DNA of 39,495 nucleotides from contig JAGQYO010000032.1 in NCBI GenBank assembly GCA_020435995.1, forward strand, positions 1 through 39,495, in the 5' to 3' direction. Position 1 is the first letter of the stretch, and each line of letters starts with the position of its first letter. Origin of the DNA: Flavobacteriales bacterium. Its GTDB lineage: Bacteria; Bacteroidota; Bacteroidia; Flavobacteriales_G; Salibacteraceae. Under the pieces are notes generated by a model. The model worked only from the letters and a program-made list of their open reading frames with translations. It ran no database searches and was not told where the DNA came from. Both the position numbers and the translations under genes were made by a program. Positions 22,660 to 39,495 of this stretch are shown here, in pieces.

Positions 22660-22708
22660 GGCATCAGAAAGGCAACGAATTGAGGATTTACAAGTATTAC
22701 AATTGAAG

Positions 22709-25700
22709 ATGAACAGCAAGAAAAGGGCTTTTCTATACTTACCCATTTTTATTATTCTTTTTACCTGTTTTTTTATGGGAGGAAAAGGGTATGCGCACGA
22801 TCACGATCCACCTCATCTATTTATTCTCAACAAAGGGCAATGGCCTGCCCAGGTGCAATACAAAACTGAGGTAAGCGCGGGCAACATGTATTTCGAAAAC
22901 AACCGAATAGTCTACAACCTTTGGGATAAATCTTTGGTTTCTCGACTCCATGCCAATAGTGAAAAAATTGATTTGGAAAAAGAACTGGTTAAAAAACACA
23001 ATTACCATGTGTATTTTGACGGGGCATCTCCTCTTTCAAATCTTCAATCTTTTTCTAAAATCAAGCAATACCACAACTATTTTCTGGGTAGCGATTCTAC
23101 CAAATGGGCAGGTGGGGTTCCGCTTTTTGAGGAACTGGCCTACAGGGAACTCTATACCGGCATTGATCTCAAGATTTTATCAGTACATGGCCAACTTAAA
23201 TATGAATTTGAAGTAGCTCCAAATGTAAACCCCAACCAAATTAAATTGCGATATGAAGGCATTGATAAACTTCGAAAAAAAGGAGATGAGCTTTGGATTA
23301 AACTCCTTGTAGGGGATGTGTATGAATCGAAACCCTATTGCTACCAAGTTGTCAATGGAGAAAAAATTGAGGTAAGTTGTGCATATAAAATTGACGGCAA
23401 CATGCTCCAATTTGATATGGGTCCAGAATACAATCCTAAGCATGCCTTAGTCATTGATCCCACCTTGGTGTTTTCGACATTTTCGGGCTCACGTGCCGAC
23501 AACTGGGGGTCTACAGCTACCTATGATGATTACGGGTTTTTATATGCCGGAGGAATTGTTTTTGGACAAGGTTACGACACCACACTTGGAGCATTTCAGA
23601 GAACCTACAGTGGAGGAGCTTGTGATATGGCGATTAGTAAATACGATACCACAGGTTCCTCAATGATTTATTCGACTTATTTGGGCGGTTCGGGGCCAGA
23701 GCAACCCCAATCGATGATTGTAAATGAAAACGGAGAATTATTTGTGTTTGGGGTTTCAGGTTCACTCAACGATTACCCAACCACACTTGGCGCGTTTGCT
23801 CGAGCTATGCATTCAGGAAGCTCAACCACGGATGCCGTTAATGTAAACGGAATTATATATCCCCGTGGTAGCGATATGGTTGTTACACGGTTCAATAACA
23901 CAGGCACTGGGCTTATTGCCAGTACTTATGTTGGTGGAGCCAGAAGTGATGGATTGAACAACCCCGCACCTATTATTACAACCACTTTTATCACAAATTA
24001 TAACTACGCTGACGAGAATAGAGGCGAAATTGAATTGGATAAGTTTGGTAATGTCATTATTGCTTCCTCTACCCTTTCCAATAATTTCCCGATGGTGGGA
24101 AGCACCTTTCAAAAAACCTTTGGAGGCGGCCAAGACGGCGTTGTTTTTAAAATGAGTCCATTTCTCAACACCATTACTTGGAGTACCTACTTGGGAGGGC
24201 AAAATGTAGATGCAGCCTATTCACTCGCCATTGAAAAAAACCAAAACATCGTAGTAGTTGGTGGAACCAATTCTCCTGGTTATTTCGGTCGTCCTGGCTC
24301 GGCTTTTAGTTCAATTCAAGGAGGAAGAACCGATGGTTTTGTTACCATTATCAAATCGGATGGATCGGCCATTGTGAACACAACTTATTTCGGCACAGGC
24401 TTTTATGATCAAGTGTACTTTGTAGAACTAGATAAAAAAGGAAACAAATATTTGTTGGGGCAAACCGAAGACTCAACCCAAAAACTGATTCTTAACGCAA
24501 CATTTAGAACCCCAAGTGCGGGTCAGTTTGTTTCAAAACTCAATCCGAGTTTAAGTTCGATTGTATGGTCTACACGATTCGGAACACCAGTGAGCTCAGG
24601 GATAGCCCGTCCGAGTTTATCGCCAACAGCATTCTTGGTTGATTTATGTGAATCCATTTATATATCGGGATGGGGTGGAAATGCCAATGTAGGAAGTAAA
24701 AACAATTCGCAACTGATGAACAGGATGGATACCACTTCCGATGGATTTCAAAAAACGACCGATGGTTCGGATTTTTACCTTATGGTGATGGACGATGTGG
24801 CCAGCAGAGTAAGATATGGGACTTACTTTGGAGGGAGCGCTGCAGAACACGTTGATGGAGGAACTTCGCGCTTTGATAAGAAAGGCCAAGTATATCAATC
24901 CGTTTGCGGCAATTGTACACCAAACGTGACATTCAATCCGCCCTTTCCAGTAACGCCAAATGCGCATGCCAGCCTGAAACCATTTGCCGTTAATTGTAAT
25001 AATGCCGTTTTCAAAATTGACTTCTTACTCCCTGTAATATTGGCAGATTTTAAAGCTCCAATTACTGTTTGTGTGAATGATTCCTTCGACCTAGAAAACT
25101 TGAGTAAGGAACTCACCTCCACCCATTATTTATGGGATTTTGGGAATGGTAAGTCAGACACAATTAAAAACCCACTTAAATATGCTTTTGACAGCGTAGG
25201 TGTTTATGAAATAAAACTGGTTATTTCGGATACGGCTTCTTGTAATTCAACCGATACACTTTCCAAGTTTGTAAATGTAGTGGCGCCCAACTCTAGCCGA
25301 TACCCCAATGATACCATTTGCCAAGGAGACACCATTCAAATCGGTTATTTTAACCCACCTTGGTTTAATTCAGTATGGAGTCCCGGGGCTTCATTAAACG
25401 ATAGCACCATACATCGACCGGTTGCCTCGCCAATGGCACCTACGGAATATTTACAACTTTTATTTAATGGGATTTGCGCCGATACTTTTAAGAAATTCAT
25501 TCATGTTGATTCTCTTGTAAATGCCGATTATTTGGTTGACGATTCGGTTTGTATTCCGGCGCTCGTAAAAGTAGTGAACAACAGCATTATCCTAAAAAGC
25601 TCAGTCTATGAATGGAACATGGGTAAGCTCGATACTTCCTCTGCCCTTGAGCCATCGATCTCCATCACCAAAAAAGGAACCTATCGCATAGTGTTCTCCA

Positions 25701-27499
25701 TAAAAGACAGCTTATCCTGTAACAAAGAAGATAGTTTGGTGAAAATTATAGTTGCCTTAAAAGATTCAACTTACTATTTACCCGACACTTCGATTTGCCT
25801 TGGTGACACCATAAAAATTGGTACTTCGCAACCCAGTAAATACACCTACATCTGGTCACCTGATTCTTCATTGGATAACAAAAATGACATTCAGCCAAGT
25901 GCCTTCCCATGGTCCGATACGGATTACGAATTATTTCAAATTAAGGAAGTGTGCACCGATACTTGGCGACTCTTTGTTGAGGTGGATTCAGTGCTTAGAG
26001 CAGAATTTCTTATTCCAGATTCAGTTTGTGTACCAGATACCGTAAAATTATCGAACCAAAGTACCATTTACCAAGGTACAACCTATACATGGGATTTGAG
26101 CGGCTTGGGAAATACGGCAGACTTCAATCCAACACTTAGTATAAATTCTAAAGGCGTTTTTAAGGTAGAAATTAGTTTAACGGATACTTCCACCTGTAAT
26201 CTCACATCCAAATCAACCAAGTATATTGAGGGAAAATCAGACACCTCATTTACACTTACACCTCAATTAATTTGTAACAATGTGGCTCGTGTAATCGGCA
26301 TTCCAAATAACCCAAGTTATACCTATTTCTGGAACACGTCCTACAAGCTGGGCGATAGCACATCTTCTAGGACATTGGCCAGACCAGCTACCGACACCAC
26401 TTATTGGTTGCATATCAGTAAAGGAGTTTGTGTAGACACCGCTTACCAAAAAATATTTAAAGACACCATTTCGGTAGACGCAAAAGACCGAGTAGATGTC
26501 TGTTCGTTTAATAAAATTACAGACCTCACTGCCAACAGCTTCGGATTGGCTAGCAATTTTCATTGGAGTAATTTCAAAAATTTTAGCGATTTAATTCCCA
26601 GTTCTAAAAACGACAGTACCGTTACCATTGATCCACCTCAATTTAGAAATAGGTATTATATAAAAACAACTTCAACAAGAGGTTGCACCCAAATAGATTC
26701 AAGCACGATTTATATATCCGATTTGGGAATTGGGGTGAGTGAGGACACGGCTAAATGTATGCACGACACGGTTCAGTTATTTGTTTTCAGTGATCTACCC
26801 GATGATAAACTAACGGCTATATGGACACCATATAAGGACATGATAACCCCCAATGACACCACGCACGTGTTAGTTACACCCACAACTACAAGGTCTTATT
26901 ACGTTGATGTGCTCAATTATTTAGGTTGTCAAAAAAAGGATTCCATTCAGGTGACGGTTTCTACTTTTGATAGCGACAGTGCCAGCATTACTGCATCCTT
27001 AGATACCATTGTAAAAATATGGGACACTCGCCTCACAGCTTATCCTCCGGGGTTTGCTTATGCATGGACACCTTCCGAATCGCTGAGCAACGCCACCATA
27101 CTTGACCCTATTGCAAGCCCGTTTCAAACTACCGATTACTTCGTAACGGTATATGACCCCAAATATCCAGAGTGTAAGCAAACCGCTACCAAACGAGTAT
27201 ATGTAGAAGAAATATATTGCGATGAGCCGTATGTATTTCTACCCAATTCATTCACACCAAATGGCGATGGAAGAAACGAAGAGCTTTTTATTAGGGGTAA
27301 GTACATCAAGGAAGTGAAGCTTATTATCTATAACCGATGGGGAGAAAAAGTATTTGAAACTACCGATCAAAATTTAGGCTGGGATGGCACATTTAAAGGC
27401 GCATTGGTTAACCCTGATGTTTTTTCATATTATCTATATGTGCAGTGTATAGATGATCAAGTTTTTGAGAAAAAAGGAGACATTACTGTCATTCGATAA
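22709..27499 (+). CDS. Large T9SS type B surface protein with SBBP/PKD-like repeats
   Basis: A 1596-residue exported protein. The signal peptide is followed by a DUF7948-like N-terminal domain (HLFILNKGQWPAQVQYK). SBBP-type beta-propeller repeats cover about residues 250-720, each with the pattern YSTYLGG or WSTYLGGQ plus a D-A motif. From about 780 come Ig/PKD-like modules; three of them start at about 866, 1025 and 1185 (DTICQGDTIQIG, DTSICLGDTIKIG, QLICNNVARVIG), roughly 159 residues apart. The last roughly 90 residues (LPNSFTPNGDGRNE, YNRWGEKVFET, GWDGTFKG, VFSYYLYVQC) are the type B gliding-motility-associated C-terminal domain, so T9SS should export and retain it. ATG 22709 is preferred over TTG 22703. 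It is followed by PorP- and OmpA-family genes, which is the usual neighbourhood of a large type B protein. Confidence 0.92.
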   Translation: MNSKKRAFLYLPIFIILFTCFFMGGKGYAHDHDPPHLFILNKGQWPAQVQYKTEVSAGNMYFENNRIVYNLWDKSLVSRLHANSEKIDLEKELVKKHNYHVYFDGASPLSNLQSFSKIKQYHNYFLGSDSTKWAGGVPLFEELAYRELYTGIDLKILSVHGQLKYEFEVAPNVNPNQIKLRYEGIDKLRKKGDELWIKLLVGDVYESKPYCYQVVNGEKIEVSCAYKIDGNMLQFDMGPEYNPKHALVIDPTLVFSTFSGSRADNWGSTATYDDYGFLYAGGIVFGQGYDTTLGAFQRTYSGGACDMAISKYDTTGSSMIYSTYLGGSGPEQPQSMIVNENGELFVFGVSGSLNDYPTTLGAFARAMHSGSSTTDAVNVNGIIYPRGSDMVVTRFNNTGTGLIASTYVGGARSDGLNNPAPIITTTFITNYNYADENRGEIELDKFGNVIIASSTLSNNFPMVGSTFQKTFGGGQDGVVFKMSPFLNTITWSTYLGGQNVDAAYSLAIEKNQNIVVVGGTNSPGYFGRPGSAFSSIQGGRTDGFVTIIKSDGSAIVNTTYFGTGFYDQVYFVELDKKGNKYLLGQTEDSTQKLILNATFRTPSAGQFVSKLNPSLSSIVWSTRFGTPVSSGIARPSLSPTAFLVDLCESIYISGWGGNANVGSKNNSQLMNRMDTTSDGFQKTTDGSDFYLMVMDDVASRVRYGTYFGGSAAEHVDGGTSRFDKKGQVYQSVCGNCTPNVTFNPPFPVTPNAHASLKPFAVNCNNAVFKIDFLLPVILADFKAPITVCVNDSFDLENLSKELTSTHYLWDFGNGKSDTIKNPLKYAFDSVGVYEIKLVISDTASCNSTDTLSKFVNVVAPNSSRYPNDTICQGDTIQIGYFNPPWFNSVWSPGASLNDSTIHRPVASPMAPTEYLQLLFNGICADTFKKFIHVDSLVNADYLVDDSVCIPALVKVVNNSIILKSSVYEWNMGKLDTSSALEPSISITKKGTYRIVFSIKDSLSCNKEDSLVKIIVALKDSTYYLPDTSICLGDTIKIGTSQPSKYTYIWSPDSSLDNKNDIQPSAFPWSDTDYELFQIKEVCTDTWRLFVEVDSVLRAEFLIPDSVCVPDTVKLSNQSTIYQGTTYTWDLSGLGNTADFNPTLSINSKGVFKVEISLTDTSTCNLTSKSTKYIEGKSDTSFTLTPQLICNNVARVIGIPNNPSYTYFWNTSYKLGDSTSSRTLARPATDTTYWLHISKGVCVDTAYQKIFKDTISVDAKDRVDVCSFNKITDLTANSFGLASNFHWSNFKNFSDLIPSSKNDSTVTIDPPQFRNRYYIKTTSTRGCTQIDSSTIYISDLGIGVSEDTAKCMHDTVQLFVFSDLPDDKLTAIWTPYKDMITPNDTTHVLVTPTTTRSYYVDVLNYLGCQKKDSIQVTVSTFDSDSASITASLDTIVKIWDTRLTAYPPGFAYAWTPSESLSNATILDPIASPFQTTDYFVTVYDPKYPECKQTATKRVYVEEIYCDEPYVFLPNSFTPNGDGRNEELFIRGKYIKEVKLIIYNRWGEKVFETTDQNLGWDGTFKGALVNPDVFSYYLYVQCIDDQVFEKKGDITVIR

Positions 27500-27502
27500 A
27501 AA

Positions 27503-28522
27503 TTGAAGCTCAATATTTACATACGGTTTTTGGCTCTATTTATATTTGGATGTACGTGGCAAAGCCAGGGTCAGGATTTGCATTTTAGCCAGTTTCTCTA
27601 CTCACCTCTCAATCTGAACCCTGCCATGACTGGAAATTTCGACGGGAGGTATCGGGTGGCATTCAACTACAGAAACCAATGGAGAGCTGTTTCTCGACCT
27701 TTTCAAACAACTTCAATTTCGGGCGATGCTCGGGATTTTCTGAATGTAAAAAACCTTGGACTAGGGGCATTGTTTTATTACGATGTTGCAGGCTCTTCAC
27801 GTTACCGAACCATTCAATTTGGCATTCCAGTTTCGTACAGAATAAATTTATCCAAGGACAGTGTTCATTCTCTTATACCGGGCCTTACCCCGAGCTTCAA
27901 TCATCAAGGAATTGATTTTTCTCAATTAAATTTCGATGATCAGTATAACGGCACACGCTACGACCCCAATAGCACCACCAACGAATCGTTTCAAGTAAAT
28001 AGGCAAAACTACCTGGACTTGGCAGCTGGGCTTGCTTACAACCTTGAACTAAAAAATGGAATCAGAGGAACTTTGGGAACTGCCGTACACAACATTTTTG
28101 AACCATCAGAAGCCTATTTAATGGGTGAGGATATTTCTCTTAACAGAAGGTACACCATGCATGCTGGAGCAACTGTACCCATTGGTTTGTCGTTTTTTAT
28201 AACTCCCGGGCTATTGTATATGACTCAGGGTGAATACAAGGAAGTTATGTTCGGTGGAGAAGTGAATTATGTGACAAGCCCGGCCCCATACAGATACAGA
28301 GCCTTTTTTATTGGTGGTTGGAATCGTGGGAAGGATGCAGCCATATTTGACTTAGGAATGTATTACAATTCATGGCGCTTCGGTATTAATTATGACATCA
28401 ATTATTCTGCGCTTAATGTAGCCACCAATAACCGTGGAGGCTGGGAAGTTTCCATAATTTATATCTTGCGCGAATTGCTTCCAAAGCGTGCAAATTTCAA
28501 ACATTGTCCAAACTACATTTAA
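27503..28522 (+). CDS. PorP/SprF-family type IX secretion-associated membrane protein
   Basis: A 339-residue outer-membrane beta-barrel. After the signal peptide (residues 1-23) comes the family opening LHFSQFLYSPLNLNPAMTGNF and NYRNQWRAVSRPF; the rest is Tyr/Gly-rich amphipathic strands (FGGEVNYVTSP, GMYYNSWRFGINYDINYS). PorP/SprF proteins bind type B C-terminal domains and the PorK/N or PorE machinery, and often sit beside the gene for the protein they help export; here that is the 1596-residue protein just upstream. The TTG at 27503 is the only plausible start: the upstream stop is in the same frame 3 nt before, and it gives a full signal peptide. The next gene begins 5 nt after its stop. 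Confidence 0.93.
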   Translation: MKLNIYIRFLALFIFGCTWQSQGQDLHFSQFLYSPLNLNPAMTGNFDGRYRVAFNYRNQWRAVSRPFQTTSISGDARDFLNVKNLGLGALFYYDVAGSSRYRTIQFGIPVSYRINLSKDSVHSLIPGLTPSFNHQGIDFSQLNFDDQYNGTRYDPNSTTNESFQVNRQNYLDLAAGLAYNLELKNGIRGTLGTAVHNIFEPSEAYLMGEDISLNRRYTMHAGATVPIGLSFFITPGLLYMTQGEYKEVMFGGEVNYVTSPAPYRYRAFFIGGWNRGKDAAIFDLGMYYNSWRFGINYDINYSALNVATNNRGGWEVSIIYILRELLPKRANFKHCPNYI

Positions 28523-28527
28523 TCGTT

Positions 28528-30531
28528 ATGTGGGTTAAAAAGGTGCTTATGGCCCTTCTTCCGTTGGTATTCGCAACGAACTTGGTTTGGGCGCAATCGC
28601 CGCAGCAATGGAGTCGTTTTGCCAGAGAATCCGCCGAACAAGGAGATTTGTTTGCCACCGCATTTTATTACAAGAAGGCGGCACAAGCCGATAGTGCCAA
28701 TTTAAGCGTATGGCTCGAATACGGCGATGCATTGAGAATTACCAACGACTACCAAAATGCAGAAGCAGTATATCGCTATGTTTTTGAACATCCCCTGCGT
28801 ACTTCCGATTTGGATGTGTCGCTGTATTGGCAGGCCAAAATGCAGCAACACCTAGGTATGTATGAAGAGGCCGAGGTAAACTTTACAAGCTACGCCAACT
28901 ACTACAGTGAATCAGGTTCCTTTTCAAAAGCGGATGCCATTCAACAAAGAAAAAGTTGCCAATGGGCGATACAGCATATTGCAGATACAGTAGATGTTGA
29001 GGTAAAAAACATCGGGGTCAACTCAAATTCGAATTATGCCGATTTTGGCGGAGCCCTACTCAACGATACCACACTGATTTTTACTTCCCTGAGGTATTTA
29101 AAAAAAGACAGCAGCATGGTGTTGCATAAATCTGAATTTGGCGAGCGGCTTAAAATTATGAAGGCGGTAAAACGTGATTCAACGTGGATTTCCATTGCAC
29201 TTTTAGATTCCATGTTTTACAAAAAAGATAGGCATATTGCCAACGCGAGTTATTATGAACCCAACAAGTGGCTGGTCTTTAGTCAATGTCCAAGCTACGG
29301 TAATTGTAAGATTTATTATTCAAAATGGAATGGTGCTTCATTTGAAGAGCCAGAGGAATTTCCAGACAATATCAATTTAGAAGGATTCAATACCACCCAG
29401 CCTTTTGTGGCAACTATCGATGGAGCCCCCACCTTATTTTTTTCATCAAACCGGCCCCAAGGAAAAGGTGGAATGGACATTTGGTATTCAATTTATAAAG
29501 AACGCCACAAGACCTTTGCCTTCCCTAGAAACATGGGCAGAAACGTAAATACCAAAGGAAATGAGATCACTCCTTTTTGGAACAGCGACAGCAACTTGTT
29601 GTTTTTTAGTAGTGATTGGCATGAAGGATTTGGCGGGTTCGATATTTTCGAATCCAAATCGAATAGCCTGGCTTCGATGAGGCCACCTGCTAATATGGGT
29701 TATGGAATTAATACAAGCGCAAATGATTTGTACTTCGCTGAGTTTCCAAAAGATAGTATGGCAATTTTTACTTCAAATAGAGAAGGCGGTATGAAAATGG
29801 AAGGGCAAACATGCTGTAACGATATCTATTATTACAAAATAAAATCTCCAATTGCCCCCATTATAGATACCATAGTGCCAGATACTACACCTTTAGTTCC
29901 AGTACTTGTAGAAATTGAGGAATTAAACAATTATTTACCTGTGCTCTACTTCGACAATGACCAACCCAATCCAAAATCTTTGGCCTCCACTACTACCAAA
30001 TCATATTATGACTGTTTTCATGAATATCTGTTGAGACGGGGAGAATATCTAAACGAATATACCAAACACAAAAAAGATGCGGAACGCGATACGGCTCATC
30101 AGCGAATCACTAATTTTTACTTAAAAAAAGTTGAAAAAGGAATGACCGATTTTGATCTATTTTGTGAGCTGCTATTAAGGCAATTGGAAAAGGGAGATTC
30201 GGCCACCATTACCATTAAAGGATATTCATCTACATTGGCAGGCACAAAATACAACCTTCATTTAACAGAGCGGCGCATCGAAAGTTTGATCAATTATATG
30301 GACCATTACAATGGCGGGATTTTAAAACCATATTTACCCCATGCCGACAAGCCAATAGCTGCCATTACATTTGAAAAAATACCTTACGGCGAATCAAAAG
30401 CCAGCCCCATTACCAGCGATGATTTAAACGATAAAGTAAACTCCATCTATAGCCCCGATGCCATGAACGAAAGAAGAATTGAAATTCTTCACGTCACTAA
30501 AAAAGAATCTCCTCAAAATGATTTAGAATAA
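28528..30531 (+). CDS. OmpA-family protein with TPR and PD40 repeats (PorE-like)
   Basis: A 667-residue exported protein. The signal peptide (MWVKKVLMALLPLVFATNLV) is followed by TPR-like helices at about 25-150 (WSRFARESAEQGDLFATAFYYKKAA). A beta-propeller of PD40 repeats spans about 170-440 (FFSSNRPQGKGGMDIWY, FFSSDWHEGFGGFDIFESK, IFTSNREGGMK). A degenerate OmpA-like peptidoglycan-binding domain comes at the end (ATITIKGYSS, NLHLTERRIESLINYM). The TPR-PD40-OmpA architecture matches PorE-like proteins, which link the T9SS outer-membrane ring to peptidoglycan, and accompanies a PorP gene and a type B protein here. ATG 28528 is chosen over TTG 28504, which lies inside the PorP reading frame. 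It is likely the last gene of that operon, 13 nt before the hydrolase. Confidence 0.88.
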   Translation: MWVKKVLMALLPLVFATNLVWAQSPQQWSRFARESAEQGDLFATAFYYKKAAQADSANLSVWLEYGDALRITNDYQNAEAVYRYVFEHPLRTSDLDVSLYWQAKMQQHLGMYEEAEVNFTSYANYYSESGSFSKADAIQQRKSCQWAIQHIADTVDVEVKNIGVNSNSNYADFGGALLNDTTLIFTSLRYLKKDSSMVLHKSEFGERLKIMKAVKRDSTWISIALLDSMFYKKDRHIANASYYEPNKWLVFSQCPSYGNCKIYYSKWNGASFEEPEEFPDNINLEGFNTTQPFVATIDGAPTLFFSSNRPQGKGGMDIWYSIYKERHKTFAFPRNMGRNVNTKGNEITPFWNSDSNLLFFSSDWHEGFGGFDIFESKSNSLASMRPPANMGYGINTSANDLYFAEFPKDSMAIFTSNREGGMKMEGQTCCNDIYYYKIKSPIAPIIDTIVPDTTPLVPVLVEIEELNNYLPVLYFDNDQPNPKSLASTTTKSYYDCFHEYLLRRGEYLNEYTKHKKDAERDTAHQRITNFYLKKVEKGMTDFDLFCELLLRQLEKGDSATITIKGYSSTLAGTKYNLHLTERRIESLINYMDHYNGGILKPYLPHADKPIAAITFEKIPYGESKASPITSDDLNDKVNSIYSPDAMNERRIEILHVTKKESPQNDLE

Positions 30532-30544
30532 CTAAATTGGAGCC

Positions 30545-31339
30545 GTGCAATTTTTGGTTGTCATATTGGTGTTTTTCGTAGTCTTTTTTGGACTCGTTTG
30601 GTTCTTTCTTTATTTCAGGCAGGAGAAAATGATTTTCCAGGCAGAGAAATTGCCCAAGCATTTTGTATTCAATTTTCCTGGAACTTATGACGAACTCACC
30701 TTCAAATCGGAGGGAAATGTACATCTACACGCATTACATTTCAAGAACAAAAATTCTAAGGGAATTGTCTTCTATTTTCACGGAAACGCAGGCTCTCTGG
30801 CCTCTTGGGGCCAATGGGCGACCTTGTTTCAGAAATACGAATTTGATGTGCTTATGTATGATTACAGAAGTTATGGTAAGAGTACAGGAAAAATTTCGAA
30901 TGAGGCCCAAATACATCGCGATGCCTTGGTGGTGTACAAAGAAGTTATTGGGCTGTACACAGGAAAGCGTGTGGTTTTCTATGGGCGGTCTTTGGGTACG
31001 GGTATTGCGGCCAAATTGGCAACTATCCACGAACCTGAATCTTTAATATTGACCACGCCCTACTTTAATTTCACCCAGCAGGTAAAATCTATGTATTCGT
31101 TTATTCCAGTGAGGGCATTGCTGAAGTATAAGTTTAAAACCAATGAATACCTACCTCTATTAAAGTGTCCTGTGTATTTAATACATGGCACTGATGACGA
31201 ATTGGTTCCTTACGAATCGAGCCTTATGTTGGAAAAATTAGGAGATCACATTCACCTCACCACCATCAAAGGGGGAACCCACGGAGATTTGCCCAATTTT
31301 AAAGAATTTAGAGATGTACTAAAAAAAGCACTGACTTAA
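30545..31339 (+). CDS. Alpha/beta hydrolase, membrane-anchored (BEM46-like)
   Basis: A 264-residue protein with one N-terminal membrane helix (residues 1-24), then an alpha/beta-hydrolase domain. The catalytic Ser149 is in GRSLG (147-151). The acid is Asp217 or Asp218 in HGTDDELVP, and His246 is in GGTHGD. The oxyanion motif FHGNAGS is at 79-84. The Ser-Asp-His arrangement and anchor are those of BEM46/ABHD-type esterases. The substrate is unknown. The GTG at 30545 is chosen because it supplies the anchor, and the next in-frame ATG (residue 29) would remove it. The stop codon overlaps the stop of the facing flavoprotein gene by 4 nt (TTAA). Confidence 0.85.
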   Translation: MQFLVVILVFFVVFFGLVWFFLYFRQEKMIFQAEKLPKHFVFNFPGTYDELTFKSEGNVHLHALHFKNKNSKGIVFYFHGNAGSLASWGQWATLFQKYEFDVLMYDYRSYGKSTGKISNEAQIHRDALVVYKEVIGLYTGKRVVFYGRSLGTGIAAKLATIHEPESLILTTPYFNFTQQVKSMYSFIPVRALLKYKFKTNEYLPLLKCPVYLIHGTDDELVPYESSLMLEKLGDHIHLTTIKGGTHGDLPNFKEFRDVLKKALT

Positions 31340-32832
31340 GCACCAGAATTGGTCATCAACCCAAATAAATCCTCTACCCTGCCATCTCTAAATCGGTAGC
31401 ATTTTAATTGTCGATTAAACACCCGAGGCTTCACAATTGATTTGCCCAATAACATTCTCGCACATTCTTGTAAACCTTCAGTAATTGCGGGATGCGGAAA
31501 AATTAAATTGGCCAACTCATGAACCGATTTTCCCATTGAAATTAGCAAAGCAACCGATTCAATGGTTGATGATGCTTGATCTCCCACAGCTCGCATCCCA
31601 AGTATTTTCATTTCAGCGTCGTCGGTTACAATCAATTTAAAAAAACCTTGGCACTTCCTCTTGGCAATAGCGCGATTTACAAATCTGTAATCCATCAAAG
31701 CCATTTTGTAGGGTATTCTTTCTTTTCTACATTGTATTTCGTTCATTCCCACACCTGCCACCTCGGGATTCAAAAACATGATGGTCGAAATGTTGTTATA
31801 ACTCATCTCGCAGTCCACTTTTCCTGCAATTCTTTCAGCGGCATAGCGCCCTTCCATTTCCGCAATATTCACCAATGCAATGTCTGCAGTTAAATCCCCT
31901 ACGGCGTAAATATTAGGTATAGAAGTCTGGGTTTCATCATCCAAGGCATAGCCCCTTGAGCTGAGCTTCATTCCCACTTCCTTTAAGCCGATGTTTTCTA
32001 CATTAGGAATTCTTCCAACCGAAAGCAGCGCTCTTTCTACGGTATGAATTTCTTCTCGTCCGTCAGGATATTCTAGGGTATATTCAACTTGACCATTTAC
32101 AATTTCCATCTTTTTGAGGCCGCAAGTGCTGTGAACCGTAACACCACTCTCGCTCAAATTTTGAGCAACTATTTGGGCAATATCATCATCTTCAAAAGGT
32201 AAAATGCGATCAGCTTTGTCTATCAAATAAACTTTGGTTTTGCCAAAATTGGAAAAAATAGTAGCAAATTCACAGCCTATAACCCCTGCTCCTACGATAA
32301 CTATGCTTTTGGGAAAATCTTTTAAATGGGTAATTCCATCAGAAGTTAAAATTATTTCCTCATCAATAGGAATGGAATCTAACAACCTAGGTCGGCTACC
32401 CACAGCCAGTATAAAATTGTCAGCCGCGAAATCCTGAATTATACCATCCAGCCCAGTTACTTCAACAGTGGTACTCGTTTTTAGCCTTGCCCTTCCCTTT
32501 ATGAATCTCATGCAGCCCTCTTTTTCCAGCGCTTGTATCTGCTCCATAATTTGGCTGTGCTTTTCATTCTCAGCCTTGTGCATTTCACCCATTACCGCAC
32601 GGTAGTCTAAGTCACTGTCAAATACATAGTATCCATAATTAGTGGATCTAACCGTTTTGTAATTCTCCGAAATTTCCCAGAGTGTTTTCGAGGCCAGCGC
32701 ACCATTAAATACACCTGCACCACCCACTTTTCCCTTTTCAATTAGCAGCACCTTATGACCCAAATCAATTGAACGCATCGCAGCCGCTATTCCCGAGGGG
32801 CCTGCACCTATTACACAAACATCAAAATGCAT
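31336..32832 (-). CDS. Dihydrolipoamide-dehydrogenase-like flavoprotein lacking the redox cysteines
   Basis: A 498-residue FAD/NAD(P)H oxidoreductase of the pyridine-nucleotide-disulphide-reductase family. FAD binding: VIGAGPSG at 8-14. NAD(P) binding: IVIVGAGVIGCEFATIF. Second FAD motif: NIYAVGDLT. Dimerisation domain from about 370, with FPHPAITEGL in place of the usual HPTLSE catalytic loop, keeping the His and Glu. The segment normally reading GGTCLNVGCIPSK is here GGAGVFNGALASK (residues 37-49), so both redox cysteines are replaced (Gly40, Ala45). It therefore cannot do disulphide exchange in the standard way; a transhydrogenase, diaphorase or direct quinone/metal reductase activity is more likely. 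It is not next to 2-oxo-acid dehydrogenase genes. It starts with ATG. Confidence 0.87.
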   Translation of the reverse strand: MHFDVCVIGAGPSGIAAAMRSIDLGHKVLLIEKGKVGGAGVFNGALASKTLWEISENYKTVRSTNYGYYVFDSDLDYRAVMGEMHKAENEKHSQIMEQIQALEKEGCMRFIKGRARLKTSTTVEVTGLDGIIQDFAADNFILAVGSRPRLLDSIPIDEEIILTSDGITHLKDFPKSIVIVGAGVIGCEFATIFSNFGKTKVYLIDKADRILPFEDDDIAQIVAQNLSESGVTVHSTCGLKKMEIVNGQVEYTLEYPDGREEIHTVERALLSVGRIPNVENIGLKEVGMKLSSRGYALDDETQTSIPNIYAVGDLTADIALVNIAEMEGRYAAERIAGKVDCEMSYNNISTIMFLNPEVAGVGMNEIQCRKERIPYKMALMDYRFVNRAIAKRKCQGFFKLIVTDDAEMKILGMRAVGDQASSTIESVALLISMGKSVHELANLIFPHPAITEGLQECARMLLGKSIVKPRVFNRQLKCYRFRDGRVEDLFGLMTNSGA

Positions 32833-33315: not shown

Positions 33316-36102
33316 TTACTCCAATTTTAAAATATTGAAATACACTGATCTGTCTGAACTTGCAAGCTTAATGAGATAATAACCAGTAGGTAATCCGGCT
33401 AATGAAAATTCAAATAACTCAGTCTCATTCAATTTGACTATAGATTGTTTTTCAAAAACCAAGGAAGAATTTGAATTGTAAATAAACAAATCGAATTCCT
33501 TCGTGTGTCCTCCAGAAATTCGCAAGTTTATTATGTCTTCTACTGGATTAGGAAAAAGGCGGTAATGATCATTTTCAACTTCAACTAACGAGGGCACCCC
33601 CACCTCAAATAAGGTATAAATTGGTGAGCTTTCCTCACATCCATTTATATCCACTGTGGTTACTTGGTAATCGCCTGGTGTAGTGGTGGCGAATCTGCTG
33701 GCATATTCCCCAACTACTACTTTACCATTAAAAGTCCAGATGTAGTAGGCCAAGCCTCGGGTAGTGTGCAAAAATCCTGAAGCATTTTTTATGACGGGAT
33801 ACACGGGAGAATAGCGGCTTATGTTAACAGAGTCGGAAAACTCGTTGCAGCTGTTTGAAGAATACAACCAATAGGTTCCTGGTGGGCCAATTATAGCAAA
33901 GCTATCGGTTAACCCCGTACTCCATGTATAGTTAGGAGGACTGGGTATTGGCACTGCCTTAATTGTATCAAAAGGACAAAGTGTGCCATCTGGCCCGAGG
34001 CTAAACCAAATCTTGGAATCTACTTGTACCCGAATGGTATCCGAATCTACCCCACATATATTGCTCACTTGTGCCCAGTAGGTGTCGGTTATAAAAGGCT
34101 GGATAATATCTAGCGAATCACCTGTACTCCATACATAACTTCCGCCCGGTGTATTAGCGGATAAAACAAAACCCGTAGTGTCACACACAGCGGTATCGCG
34201 CCCAAGTGCCAGATGAGGAACATCGTACACCTCAACTATAACCGAATCTTGATAAACGCCACAAAAATTAGAGCTTCGTGCCCAATAGGTTCCTGCTGCG
34301 GATATGCTTCTAACTGGAGAGGTGGAGCCGTTATCCCAATAATAAATAGAGCCTGTGTCGCTAATATCCCAAGTAATGCTGTTTCCCTTACAAATAGCAG
34401 TGTCTGAGCCTAAATTCAGTCCCTCATTGTACAGTTTTAGCACTTTTACTTGACTCGAATCCGATCCACATTTATTGGTTGCCTTTAAGCTAAATGTACC
34501 GGCTCGGCCAACTTCGCGGTATTTATATCTGCTCGAATCATCCCAAATACAAATCGGCTCCCAAGTGGATGTTATTTTGGGAAAAAGAGTGTCCTTCCAG
34601 CACATCGAAGTATCGGCTCCAAATATTACTTGAGGCGGCAGTCCTATCAATATAGAATCTACTAAAGTGTCTTTCAACAAAGCGCCTTGCGAGTTGTGCC
34701 TAAAAATGATGGCTTGAATCCCATACTTACCAGCCGAATTGTAAATATGGTATGTTTTAATAAGTGTACTCGTGTTTCGCAAGCCGCTTGAAGGGTCACC
34801 GAAGTTAAACTTTACAGAATCAATTCCTGTGCTTTGACTTATCGAAATGGCCACCGTATCACCCACGCAGCCATCTTTAGCTTTTATTCCAAGCTCTTCA
34901 AATAAATGTGACGAAAACGTCGGTAGTCCTAATCTTATGCTTGACCCAGCAATTGCACGAAGTGCCACCTCTGTAAATTGTGAGCTGAGTCCACCTTTAT
35001 TCGGAAATTCTACCGCACTTAAGTAGTTTTTGTTGATCCTGGTGTAGTAAATCTTTCCATTGGGTGCTAATTGAATTTGGCCATTTTCGTAATCACTCGA
35101 TTTGGGGTGCAACATAACTCCCGATGCGCTTATCAAATCAGCGGAATCAAGTTGTAAATTAAACTGTATCAAGCCATAGGAAGTAACATACAAGTATTTG
35201 TTATTTGGAGAAAACTCAATCCCATAAGGTAAAAAATCGGAACCTTGTGGTGGGTAAGTGATGGACCTTTGGTTCGAGAATTTCCCCCCGCCCTTGTCGA
35301 AATCAAACAACAACACTTGCCTTCCAACACCTAAAGCAATGGCCAACATAGTTCCATCGGGTGAGAACTTCATACATCCATAGTGCGGAAAATTGACCAT
35401 TCCCTTGGGTTTGTCGATAAGAATTTTAGCTTTTGAATTCTCCACAAACCCTGCCCCTACAGTCGTGAGCATCAACTCCCAAGTGGGCGTAAAAACTGAT
35501 GCGACCCAATAGGAGCTTCCGCCCGCCTTTACGGTTGACGCAACTTTATCACCTACATCCTCGTGCAACTTCCTATTTTTTCGAGCAAATGGATTTGGAT
35601 AATCCGGTTTCCTAATTGGATAAAACGCGGTGTCGATATCGCCCAAACCACCATTAAGACTCATATCTACCTCCGACACATGGAAACCAACAGACTCGGG
35701 AAATGGAATAGTAAAAATATAATACCGCTGTGTATCTTGTGGATGTGGAACTATACTAGCCGAATGAGAAGACGATGTATGACCTAATAAGCCATATCCG
35801 TTTGGCATTCTGTTGTGGTTTTTATCCCATACTGAAATTCCATCTGTATAAAAAAGTAATTGGCCCGTTTTCGGATGAGAAATAGAAGCGGAACCTTCGA
35901 ACTGATTCATAGTTCCTTTTGTTGAAATAATCGGGTTAGGGGAATTAAAATCGATAGCAACCTTGTCGCCAAAATACCACCAATTGTCTTCGTTTTGGGC
36001 TTTAGAATTTAAACTAAAAAATAACAAAGTAGCCAACATCAACGGCGAAATGCCATAACTCAACAATGTTGAGTGGAATGATTTGCTGAATAACTTACTC
36101 AT
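33316..36102 (-). CDS. T9SS type A surface protein with beta-propeller and Ig-like repeats
   Basis: A 928-residue exported protein. The signal peptide (TLLSYGISPLMLATLLFFSL, then NSKAQ) precedes a WWYFG-type N-terminal beta-propeller to about residue 400 (NWWYFGDKVAIDF, LLFYTDGISVWDKNHNRMPNG, MKFSPDGTMLAIAL, LQLDSADLISASG). A PKD-like domain (KFNFGDPSSG) follows, then four Ig-like modules with LGxDTxxC-type starts (FGADTSMCW, NLGSDTAICKG, ALGRDTAVCD, SLGPDGTLCP). The last 75 residues (YRLFPNPVEDIINLRIS to FNILKLE) are a T9SS type A domain. The ATG at 36102 matches the start length of the paralogue next to it; the longer frame starts at ATG 36168, overlapping the previous gene's stop in ATGA, and is a real alternative. 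It is paired with the following type B paralogue. Confidence 0.88.
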   Translation of the reverse strand: MSKLFSKSFHSTLLSYGISPLMLATLLFFSLNSKAQNEDNWWYFGDKVAIDFNSPNPIISTKGTMNQFEGSASISHPKTGQLLFYTDGISVWDKNHNRMPNGYGLLGHTSSSHSASIVPHPQDTQRYYIFTIPFPESVGFHVSEVDMSLNGGLGDIDTAFYPIRKPDYPNPFARKNRKLHEDVGDKVASTVKAGGSSYWVASVFTPTWELMLTTVGAGFVENSKAKILIDKPKGMVNFPHYGCMKFSPDGTMLAIALGVGRQVLLFDFDKGGGKFSNQRSITYPPQGSDFLPYGIEFSPNNKYLYVTSYGLIQFNLQLDSADLISASGVMLHPKSSDYENGQIQLAPNGKIYYTRINKNYLSAVEFPNKGGLSSQFTEVALRAIAGSSIRLGLPTFSSHLFEELGIKAKDGCVGDTVAISISQSTGIDSVKFNFGDPSSGLRNTSTLIKTYHIYNSAGKYGIQAIIFRHNSQGALLKDTLVDSILIGLPPQVIFGADTSMCWKDTLFPKITSTWEPICIWDDSSRYKYREVGRAGTFSLKATNKCGSDSSQVKVLKLYNEGLNLGSDTAICKGNSITWDISDTGSIYYWDNGSTSPVRSISAAGTYWARSSNFCGVYQDSVIVEVYDVPHLALGRDTAVCDTTGFVLSANTPGGSYVWSTGDSLDIIQPFITDTYWAQVSNICGVDSDTIRVQVDSKIWFSLGPDGTLCPFDTIKAVPIPSPPNYTWSTGLTDSFAIIGPPGTYWLYSSNSCNEFSDSVNISRYSPVYPVIKNASGFLHTTRGLAYYIWTFNGKVVVGEYASRFATTTPGDYQVTTVDINGCEESSPIYTLFEVGVPSLVEVENDHYRLFPNPVEDIINLRISGGHTKEFDLFIYNSNSSLVFEKQSIVKLNETELFEFSLAGLPTGYYLIKLASSDRSVYFNILKLE

Positions 36103-36164
36103 TGTTTTACTAGGCGCTAAGAACACCTTTAAATAGCGAACATCACTCAATCTTTTGTGCAAAC

Positions 36165-39101
36165 TCATCTTATAAGTTGTACCTCGCCGACTATCACTTT
36201 TTGCGCGGGACTATTGGTTTCTACATATTCAATTTTGTACAAATACGTCCCTATAGGTGATGCTTCACCTGTGTTGAACCGGTTTCCGTTCCATCCTTCG
36301 GAAATGTCGGTAGATTCATATAAAACCTCATTCCACTGGTTGAGTATCATCATTTTAAAATCCCTAACACCTTCCTTGTTTACCAAAAACACATCATTCA
36401 ACAAGTCATTATTTGGTGAAAATGCACTGGGAATATAAAAGGGTTTGTCGCATAAAACCACTTCAAAATCTTCTTTAGAAGCACATCCGTTTTCATTGGT
36501 CAACACGAACGAATAAGTTCCTTGATCAATAAACTCTTTGCGTAAATTGGTGTCACCATCGTTCCACAAGATTTTCCAAGGGTAAATTGAAAAATCCATC
36601 ACCACTGGCTCTTCACAAGCTTCGTATTCAAAAAGTAGATCTATTTTGCTTGGCTCGGCCAACTTTACAAAAACGGTATCGCGAATTTCCCCACAATCAT
36701 TTTTGGCATAAACCCAATACTTCCCTTCTTTCTTCGCGTGATATTGATTTACCTTTTCCCTACCCTGCCAAAAAACTGTGGTATATTCTAACATTTGGCT
36801 AGTTAAATCAGGCGTTATGATCAATTTTTTGCCCTCACAAAACCACATGTTTTCATCTAAGTCAAAATCCGGTTTAGTTTGTTCATAAACCTGAAATGAC
36901 TCCTCTCCTGTGCCACACACATTGGTAATGGTTAAGGTATATTCACCACCTTGAGTGATGTGCAGCTCATCATCTGTTGACCCCGTGCTCCAAAGAAATT
37001 GCGTAGAATACGGGATATCTATTTTTTGATGAATAGTGTCTCCTGTACACAATAATGTATCCTTTATGGGGTAAAATGGAAGCTCATCAAAATAAGCAAA
37101 TATGGAGTCAATGTCTTCGCCACACTCATTGGTTGCTTTCACATAATAAAGTCCAGATCTCCAAATTTGAAGGTGGGCTGTAGTATCACCTGTATTCCAC
37201 TTAAATGATGTGGCATGGGACGAATTGCCCAAAACGGCAGTGTCACCCTTGCAAAGCAAAGTATCCTTTTTAAAATAATTAATTGGAAACTGTAGGGTAG
37301 TGATATTAATTGTATCGACGGCGGTGTTACAAGCATTTTGAACAGTTACCCAATATTTACCACTCTGAGTTATTCGGATAGTTCTTGTTGTATCGCCAGT
37401 GTTCCATGTATAAATAGCTTGGGCAGGCTTGGCTGCAACCAAGAAGGTATCACTTACACAAACGGTAGTGTCTGGACCCAATGCGTTTTTAATTGTATCC
37501 GCCATAAACACATAAATACTATCTCTAGTGGCGCCGCATTTATTAGAAACATCCACATAATATAAACCTGAATTAAAAACAAACCTAGTTCTTGAAGTTC
37601 CGCCATCATGCCAGCGAAAATCATCGCCTTGAAATCCAGCATTCAAAAAAAAGTAAGGTTGGCGGCACAAAGAGGTGTCGTTACCCAAATTTACGCGCGG
37701 CAAGTCTTGAATTTTAATGCTGTCAACCAGTGTGTCAATAAATACTTGGCCATTGATTCGCGCAAATACCAAGGCCTTAATTTTATACATGCCCGGTGTT
37801 TTATAAAAATGCGAATCCAACATATTGGTTGAATAATTTTTGGTACCCGAAGCAGGATCTCCGTAGTCAAACCACACCGAGTCGTAATAAATATGGTTGT
37901 GTAGTGCTATTTTGGCATATTGGTTTACGCAGGTATTCTCAAATTCAAATTTATTCTTGTAAATCAATGAATTAACAACATTCGGTAGCCCAGCGCGCGC
38001 ATCCATTCCACTTGGTAAGGTGTGCGCCACATTATCGAAATTGCAACCAGCACCAGGCACATTCGGGTTTCTTATGGCACTGATAAATGGTTTGAACAAG
38101 GGAGCAATATAAATCCGTTGGTCTTTTCCTAACTGCAAGGCCGTATAGACAAAAAGGGTATCTGCGTGAACCAAATGAGAAGATCCATTAAACCTAGACC
38201 CCGTATAACTCTGATAAATTGATCTTAATGCGCTCACATACAACAGCTTTCCATCTGGCGAAAACTCTAGACCATAGGGAATGAGCATGGATTTAACCTT
38301 TGCATTTTTCACCCTTCCCGTTTTATTGTCAAAGTCCATTAGCACAACCTTATTCGCACCGGTAAGGCAGTAAGCCAACTGATCCCCTTGCACACTGATT
38401 TTCATGATACCAATATCGACGCCGTTGACGGCCGTGGTTGACGAATTTATAGGGCCCGCTCTCGATATAACTGGTGGCGATATTCCTTTGGCATCCACTA
38501 AATAGGAGTAATACTCGTTACTCCGGTATCCTTGCACTACAAGCCAAAACGCATTTTTATTGGCATGTCTTGTTGCTACCAAACGTTCGGCGGTAGGTTG
38601 CCTTATAAGTTTCTCTCGGTAAAATGGAAGCACATCTCCTTTTCCACCATTAAGTCTTAAATCAACAATCGAATAACGTAGCCCATTAATCCCTTTATTT
38701 AAAAATCCATCATCGATCGTAAAAACATAATATCGGTATTTATCATTTGGGATAGGTATAATTAAAGCCGCTTGAGATGCACTGGGATGTCCACTTAACC
38801 CAATCCCATTGGGCATTGGACCATGATCTCTAGAAAATATGGTGGCACCATCTGTATATAGTTGCAATTCTCCCGTAAGCGGATGTGAAATGGAAGCCAC
38901 TCCTTCCATCATGTTCATGCCACTTACTACGCTATCGGATACCAGCGTGTCTTTGTCGAAATGCATGTTAGCTCCTCTTCCAAAATACCACCAATCATAT
39001 TCTTTTTGAGCAGCTAGGTTGAGCGACAAAAACAAAACAAAGAGACTCATCCAAGTAAAGGAAGAAAACAAGAATTTGTATGGTATTTTATTTTGGTACA
39101 A
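36165..39101 (-). CDS. T9SS type B surface protein, paralogue of the neighbouring type A protein
   Basis: A 978-residue exported protein. The architecture follows the neighbour: WWYFG propeller to about residue 380 (MHFDKDTLVSDS, LQLYTDGATIFSRDHGPMPNG, MKISVQGDQLAYCL, LEFSPDGKLLYVSAL), a PKD-like domain (DYGDPASGTKNYSTN), then Ig-like repeats (NLGNDTSLC, ALGPDTTVC, FKKDTLLC, PIKDTLLC). The C-terminus is different: IPSAFSPNNDLLNDVF, NQWNEVLYES, GWNGNRF and YLYKIEYV form the type B gliding-motility domain. It starts at TTG 39101, with no ATG suitable for the signal peptide (ATG at residue 18 would leave too short an n-region). A TACCTTTG element lies 24 nt upstream. The stop overlaps the ATG at 36168 of the next frame. 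Confidence 0.88.
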   Translation of the reverse strand: MYQNKIPYKFLFSSFTWMSLFVLFLSLNLAAQKEYDWWYFGRGANMHFDKDTLVSDSVVSGMNMMEGVASISHPLTGELQLYTDGATIFSRDHGPMPNGIGLSGHPSASQAALIIPIPNDKYRYYVFTIDDGFLNKGINGLRYSIVDLRLNGGKGDVLPFYREKLIRQPTAERLVATRHANKNAFWLVVQGYRSNEYYSYLVDAKGISPPVISRAGPINSSTTAVNGVDIGIMKISVQGDQLAYCLTGANKVVLMDFDNKTGRVKNAKVKSMLIPYGLEFSPDGKLLYVSALRSIYQSYTGSRFNGSSHLVHADTLFVYTALQLGKDQRIYIAPLFKPFISAIRNPNVPGAGCNFDNVAHTLPSGMDARAGLPNVVNSLIYKNKFEFENTCVNQYAKIALHNHIYYDSVWFDYGDPASGTKNYSTNMLDSHFYKTPGMYKIKALVFARINGQVFIDTLVDSIKIQDLPRVNLGNDTSLCRQPYFFLNAGFQGDDFRWHDGGTSRTRFVFNSGLYYVDVSNKCGATRDSIYVFMADTIKNALGPDTTVCVSDTFLVAAKPAQAIYTWNTGDTTRTIRITQSGKYWVTVQNACNTAVDTINITTLQFPINYFKKDTLLCKGDTAVLGNSSHATSFKWNTGDTTAHLQIWRSGLYYVKATNECGEDIDSIFAYFDELPFYPIKDTLLCTGDTIHQKIDIPYSTQFLWSTGSTDDELHITQGGEYTLTITNVCGTGEESFQVYEQTKPDFDLDENMWFCEGKKLIITPDLTSQMLEYTTVFWQGREKVNQYHAKKEGKYWVYAKNDCGEIRDTVFVKLAEPSKIDLLFEYEACEEPVVMDFSIYPWKILWNDGDTNLRKEFIDQGTYSFVLTNENGCASKEDFEVVLCDKPFYIPSAFSPNNDLLNDVFLVNKEGVRDFKMMILNQWNEVLYESTDISEGWNGNRFNTGEASPIGTYLYKIEYVETNSPAQKVIVGEVQLIR

Positions 39102-39124: not shown

Positions 39125-39132
39125 CAAAGGTA
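39125..39132 (-). promoter_or_regulatory. Candidate -7 element (TACCTTTG) for the type B paralogue
   Basis: Read on the minus strand, TACCTTTG matches TAnnTTTG exactly and lies 24 nt upstream of the TTG start, giving a leader of about 18 nt. A TTG lies 24 nt upstream of it, a little beyond the usual spacing to the -33 box. Confidence 0.45.
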
Positions 39133-39228: not shown

Positions 39229-39495
39229 TTACTTAACTATGTGAACTTCACCTAGCTCTTGTTGGAGCTGCTTGTTAGCATTTTCTCTATAGGTTACTTT
39301 ATAGAGGTATGTTCCCACCGGGCATTTTGATTCCGTGTTATGCAACAGTCCATTCCACTCATCGGTTATGGTGTATGTTTCAAACACGACTTCGTTCCAG
39401 CGGTTGAATACTTGTAGGTGAAAATCATAGATGTTCTCTTTGTAAACTCGCCATGTTTCGTTCTTTCCATCTCGGTTGGGGGTAAAGGCATTGGG
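39229..39495 (-). CDS. C-terminal end of a third T9SS type B protein (5' end outside window)
   Basis: The frame is open from the right edge to TAA at 39229-39231 and encodes 88 residues: PNAFTPNRDGKNETWRVYKE, then FHLQVFNRWNEVVFET, DEWNGLL, CPVGTYLYKVTYRE and GEVHIVK. These are the blocks of the type B gliding-motility-associated C-terminal domain. The rest of the protein lies upstream, beyond the window edge. It is one more large surface protein gene on the same strand as the two paralogues at 33316-39101, separated from them by 127 nt that include their candidate promoter. Confidence 0.85.
   Translation of the reverse strand, partial: PNAFTPNRDGKNETWRVYKENIYDFHLQVFNRWNEVVFETYTITDEWNGLLHNTESKCPVGTYLYKVTYRENANKQLQQELGEVHIVK

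Follow-up and report, generated by a model that had tools for sequence, protein, structure and literature searches.

How two neighbouring genes with a common surface-protein architecture come to end in different T9SS tails is the question raised by this locus of the window, the whole 39,495-nt stretch analysed here (contig C133 of the Flavobacteriales genome G000). The first-pass annotation had described two adjacent genes, here P1 and P2, sharing propeller, PKD-like and Ig-like parts, and this description holds at the coordinates collected in Table 1. BLASTP aligned P1 residues 48-783 with P2 at 31% identity (E 5e-104), so the common architecture is well beyond chance. Both proteins begin with a hydrophobic N-terminus, read by eye as a signal peptide, and the genes are probably co-transcribed, P2 before P1. 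The sequence TACCTTTG (window 39125-39132, minus strand), 5′ of P2, resembles the Bacteroidota -7 element, TAnnTTTG, and the P2-P1 pair may therefore have its own promoter. In the AlphaFold model the propeller and PKD part of P1 (residues 62-510) has a pLDDT of 87.3, and the top Foldseek match of the N-terminal part of the model was 1l0q, a tandem YVTN propeller and PKD domain of an archaeal surface-layer protein. Order and fold are the same as in the N-terminal half of P1; identity is approximately 13% over the alignment, and membership is not claimed.

Table 1. Features of the propeller array in the window (numbering from the first base of the window).
Feature	Position	Strand	Basis
P1, 950-aa surface protein, type A T9SS tail	33316..36168	-	ORF; PF18962 and TIGR04183 above cut-off
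P1 propeller, residues 62-421	34906..35985	-	Alignment of relatives; AlphaFold model; Foldseek 1l0q
P1 PKD-like domain, ~residues 427-510	34639..34890	-	PF18911 at 432-485, weak, below cut-off; Foldseek 1l0q
P1 four Ig-like LGxDTxxC modules, starts 516, 586, 655, 724	33817..34623	-	Motif positions; BLASTP
Junction, ~P1 residues 785-788; likeness to type B relatives ends past it	33805..33816	-	Matches in family genomes
Pre-tail Ig-like module of the type A cassette, ~residues 786-866	33571..33813	-	Profile matches; abuts type A tails elsewhere
P1 type A T9SS tail, residues 871-948	33325..33558	-	PF18962, TIGR04183; model vs. solved type A CTDs
P2, 978-aa surface protein, type B T9SS tail	36165..39101	-	ORF; PF13585 and TIGR04131 above cut-off
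P2 propeller, residues 36-378	37968..38996	-	BLASTP; HMM
P2 type B T9SS tail, residues 890-976	36174..36434	-	PF13585, TIGR04131
Overlap of P2 stop codon and P1 ATG (ATGA), 4 bases	36165..36168	-	Sequence
Type B tail of the third gene, 88 residues, cut by contig end	about 39229..39495	-	Last 264 bases of window
Lipoamide-dehydrogenase-like (lpd-like) gene closing the array	31336..32832	-	Orthologues in other genomes

The assignment of different tails to the two proteins, made by the same annotation, was borne out, each tail scoring above both its Pfam and its NCBIfam cut-off. P1 matched PF18962 (residues 871-941) with 32.1 bits (cut-off 27) and TIGR04183 with 25.1 bits (cut-off 23); P2 matched PF13585 (residues 890-965) with 45.4 bits (cut-off 27) and TIGR04131 with 35.4 bits, barely above the cut-off of 35. 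The model of the P1 tail (pLDDT 75.5) aligned with the CTD of NucA (8glk_D) at Z 9.7 and rmsd 2.1 over 74 residues with 26% identity, and with that of RemA (8gl6_D) at Z 8.9 and rmsd 2.1 over 75, indicating that the tail is likely to form the same Ig-like sandwich as the solved type A CTDs. The type A domain of P1 differs from these in sitting on a propeller family with mostly type B tails. The tail of P2, like the one ascribed below to a third gene, P3, belongs with type B CTDs, of which a relative has been solved in GhpA of Aureispira (9flp); a profile of 35 type B tails matched the C-terminus of GhpA.

According to PMC12618676, PorV carries type A tails, PorP/SprF-type barrels carry those of type B, and engineered exchanges of the two redirect SprB, AmyB and RemA. 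PMC9143113 describes that PorP-like proteins hold type B proteins and that type A proteins are joined to A-LPS in P. gingivalis. Both export routes exist in the genome of the window, since it has one PorV above the cut-off (at C185) and nine PorP/SprF (PF11751) places. None of these PF11751 places adjoins P1 or P2; the sole one on the window contig (27566-28462, +) lies beyond the lpd-like gene on the opposite strand. P2 would thus be an 'orphan' type B protein, while many type B genes adjoin a PorP/SprF gene; such a neighbour is usual for the type, not universal, and so is not decisive. By analogy with the other proteins described in PMC12618676 and PMC9143113, different export or anchoring of the two proteins is a sound prediction, with P1 directed to the PorV route and P2 to the PorP/SprF route. 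The P1 head would be carried by PorV and then attached to lipopolysaccharide or released, whereas P2 and P3 would be carried and held by PorP/SprF-type barrels.

A different tail might also mean nothing for function, the modules having drifted and both proteins being static at the surface whatever their ends. PMC12618676 lends this some credit, as RemA (type A) can be anchored and Fjoh_3952 (type B) is static; the same study also reports that the tail dictates the localisation of chimeras and that the A and B shuttles differ, which argues against it. We regard drift of this kind as rather unlikely, and retain the prediction of two routes.

P1 and P2 are part of a larger array. The last 264 bases of the window (39232-39495, minus strand) encode a further type B tail, overlooked in the first-pass annotation. 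The N-terminal part of P3 is the propeller gene C193:1-1716 (-), which runs off the contig start and is adjoined, beyond its propeller ORF, by a divergent M3 peptidase gene. The window end and the start of C193 do not overlap exactly over any length from 11 to 200 bases. The locus is conserved at the sequence level: in the relatives G011, G009 and G025 a single locus reads M3 peptidase gene, array, lpd-like gene, with bracket orthologues 57-61% (M3 peptidase) and 73-76% (lpd-like) identical. Because this bracket is common to the three genomes, C193 and C133 are most likely neighbours; the contig ends having no exact overlap, it is synteny that argues for the join. The tail at 39229..39495 thus most likely belongs to the P3 gene of C193, and through this join P3 would most likely be type B. 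Comparison of synteny and C-termini in relatives, as had been suggested for this locus, revealed type B genes only within the bracket of G011 (BBBB), G009 and G025 (two genes each), and a type A tail in the P1-like gene on contig C48 of another relative, G002 (G002:C48). Orthologues of the lpd-like gene, 73-78% identical, close the array in G002, G009, G011 and G025. The brackets of G002 are split over two contigs, with a P3-like gene by the M3 peptidase gene and a P2-like gene by lpd. The latter, on C37 (L293:9683-14882), is interrupted by an ISXO2/IS1595-family transposase ORF (L293:12743-13705), and its distal part ends with a type B tail. One type B gene within the bracket of G009 (L304:5953-9486) and of G025 (L305:6012-9527) had no WWYFG propeller by HMM, with Ig modules present in that of G009; like the tail, the propeller head may be exchangeable.

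Where the likeness of P1 to its kin ends was determined by alignment, a check also proposed with the first annotation, and a sharp stop was seen by about P1 residue 788. With 26 candidates scored per genome in 35 family genomes, 23 places matched P1 at E≤1e-80. Only P1 itself and G002:C48 matched through to the P1 end; the remaining 21 ended at or before query residue 727, equal to P1 residue 788, two of them (C193 and G002:C44) through a contig end. The alignment of P1 with G002:C48 begins at P1 residue 43 and runs through the P1 C-terminus (36%), and G002:C48 aligned with the first G011 gene at 39%, ending at G002:C48 residue 769. The four Ig modules of P1 are in register with those of G002:C48 (motif starts 482, 552, 621 and 692) and of the G011 type B relative, where motifs start at 482, 552, 621 and 692 and then at 761, 830 and 974. 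From these registers and match ends it follows that four modules were retained and that a single Ig-like module of another kind, followed by a type A tail, took the place of the rest. This cassette of approximately 165 aa stands where the kin have later Ig modules and a type B tail, and the N-terminal part up to the sharp end of similarity is still homologous, the pattern by which we recognise an exchange; recombination would be the process behind it. That type B secretion may need >200 residues, as stated in PMC10202324, is in keeping with an exchanged segment that extends beyond the tail itself.

The pre-tail module keeps company with type A tails. Its five best non-self matches in the same genome lie in frames with a type A tail (C186, C98, C123, C159 and C132), directly before that tail in three of the five as read from coordinates. 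A model of the P1 and G002:C48 modules scored >20 bits with 8 of the 17 type A propeller proteins held out from it, and with 1 of 167 of type B. When 42 genomes of the order were scanned with the complete P1 cassette, G002:C48 was its best match other than P1 itself. Compared by the cassette alone, P1 scored 73.9 bits with G002:C48 and 63.2 with the next match, an unrelated protein of the P1 genome; the G002:C48 cassette found its best non-self match in L224 (74.3). We rejected a named donor, the nearest cassette of the own genome (C186:3343-3816) being too distant at 34%. Foldseek on the P1 cassette returned mostly generic Ig matches; the T9SS tail 8glk_D ranked 40th, and VIA-align placed T9SS CTDs near the top, behind DUF3244 proteins.

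The tree built from 45 propellers pairs P1 with the type A gene G002:C48, which comes from another genus, with support of 99/90, within a nine-row set (98/96) that holds P3, the G002 P3-like gene and five G011 genes; the P1 branch is long (1.38). P2 stands with genes of G002:C37, G011, G009 and G025 (97/94). A 20-row tree of the propeller, PKD and first Ig part again joins P1 with G002:C48 (99/98) and places P2 elsewhere, on a long branch in a weaker clade (93/88). The 45-propeller tree supports P3 as the sister next to P1, a placement that the 20-row tree leaves unsettled. The two neighbours thus fall into separate clades, and each has a relative of its own outside its genus. The type A state of P1, being common to G002:C48, predates the split of the genera.

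We therefore consider it likely that an old exchange of a type B for a type A tail took place in the lineage of P1 and G002:C48, before their genera split, in a family arranged as a tandem array. P1, P2 and P3 would be old members of a family of secreted propeller, PKD and Ig-like surface proteins, whose array stands between the M3 peptidase and lpd-like genes and whose ancestral tail would be type B. In the P1/G002:C48 lineage, the further Ig modules and type B tail after the fourth Ig module would have given way, before the genera parted, to a different Ig-like module with a type A tail, a combination that also occurs in type A proteins of this genome that are unrelated to P1. Because the unrooted tree gives no direction, it is the type B majority and the bracket that point from B to A. 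G002:C48 lies outside the bracket, and a move or a loss must therefore be added.

The majority was counted in a sample of 218 unique full propellers, drawn from 237 propeller ORFs at 100 loci of relatives, named loci (the best 80 of 549), the window and C193. The 100 loci were chosen by hand among the matches listed, from which weaker and contig-end places were partly left out. The 218 comprised 167 type B and 19 type A propellers; a further 18 had neither tail or a broken frame, and 14 were truncated where a locus or contig ends; without the last two groups type A is a minority of 19/186. TIGR04183 and PF18962 matched all 19 type A tails (2 also touch PF13585 weakly), and TIGR04131 matched all 35 type B tails tested of the 167 (5 also touch TIGR04183 weakly). 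On a FastTree tree of the 218 rows the label changed between A and B at least 14 times, vs. a mean of 18.4 (16-19) for shuffled labels, and with strong calls only (180 rows, 16 type A) at least 11 times; as many branches are weak (70/215 inner branches open), these numbers are a rough floor under that topology. Changes of tail type recur in this propeller family. Both tails could be typed in 31 pairs of adjacent genes on one strand, of which 27 were BB, 3 AA and 1 AB, the last being P1/P2; mixed neighbours are thus unusual. In the 3.76-Mb genome of the window at least 150 places matched PF18962, with 150 of 225 initial candidates scored, and 27 matched PF13585.

Such scatter of type A on the tree would also suit two separate acquisitions of a type A cassette, one by P1 and one by G002:C48, and cassette similarity by itself singles out no one origin. 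Against two captures stand the Ig modules, which are equal in number and in register and lead up to one and the same junction, the full-length alignment of the two proteins, their sisterhood in both trees and the 42-genome scan, where nothing but P1 itself matched the P1 cassette better than G002:C48. We hold separate captures to be improbable, and favour the single old exchange. A broader reading, to which we give a tentative and somewhat less than even chance, is that the Ig module and type A tail move together as a cassette, whose exchange has turned type B T9SS surface proteins into type A ones more than once, with tail type a labile targeting switch. Were this so, tail type would not be a fixed property of a protein family, and the same propeller head would have been rerouted between shuttle systems during evolution.

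The first-pass annotation had placed a C-terminal exchange after duplication of the two neighbours. The exchange stands; its timing and partners do not. Adjacency, the 4-base overlap and the common architecture are what one would expect if P1 and P2 were recent tandem duplicates of which one later swapped its tail, but identity is only 31%, the two fall in separate clades in two trees, and the type A state of P1 is common to another genus. Forcing P1 and P2 together cost 45 log-likelihood units and was rejected by the AU test (p-AU 0.004), which with both trees rules them out as each other's closest relatives; recent duplication is thus very improbable. An artefact of assembly or annotation, which the contig end within the neighbouring gene might suggest, is scarcely credible given that the P1 reading frame is unbroken and lies within the contig, and that another assembly holds a full-length chimera like it.

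The nearest known parallel is the engineered exchange between SprB (type B) and AmyB or RemA (type A) in Flavobacterium johnsoniae, which in PMC12618676 involves the two shuttle classes predicted for P1 and P2 and, as in P1, a type A tail where the kin use type B. Those exchanges are laboratory-made, whereas that of P1 is natural, takes in the preceding Ig-like module and is common to two genera; P1 looks like a natural counterpart of the laboratory tail swap. The roles of the tails, in the papers cited here, have been learned from engineered fusions and mutants in few species. P1/P2 offers a natural experiment, with homologous heads, opposite tails, one probable operon and an outgroup locus that is all type B, and thus a matched pair for asking whether tail type alone sets release, static anchoring or movement. 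The propeller family further allows the tail switch to be counted and dated. Among the papers listed by our literature search no natural exchange between type A and type B tails was apparent, which argues only weakly that none has been described. Surface virulence factors of Porphyromonas gingivalis, a T9SS bacterium, have reportedly undergone domain rearrangement and allelic exchange, in a study apparently not about change of tail type.

Two further observations concern other ways in which T9SS or propeller proteins are arranged in these genomes. A probable type B operon at 22703-30531 (+) of the window comprises a 1598-aa DUF7948/PKD/CHU_C protein, a PorP/SprF gene and a PD40 protein. Two tail-less propeller ORFs of the sample (L217:3520-5064 and L228:1416-3311) have, by eye, OmpA-like ends, perhaps a third way of fixing the same propeller head to the cell.
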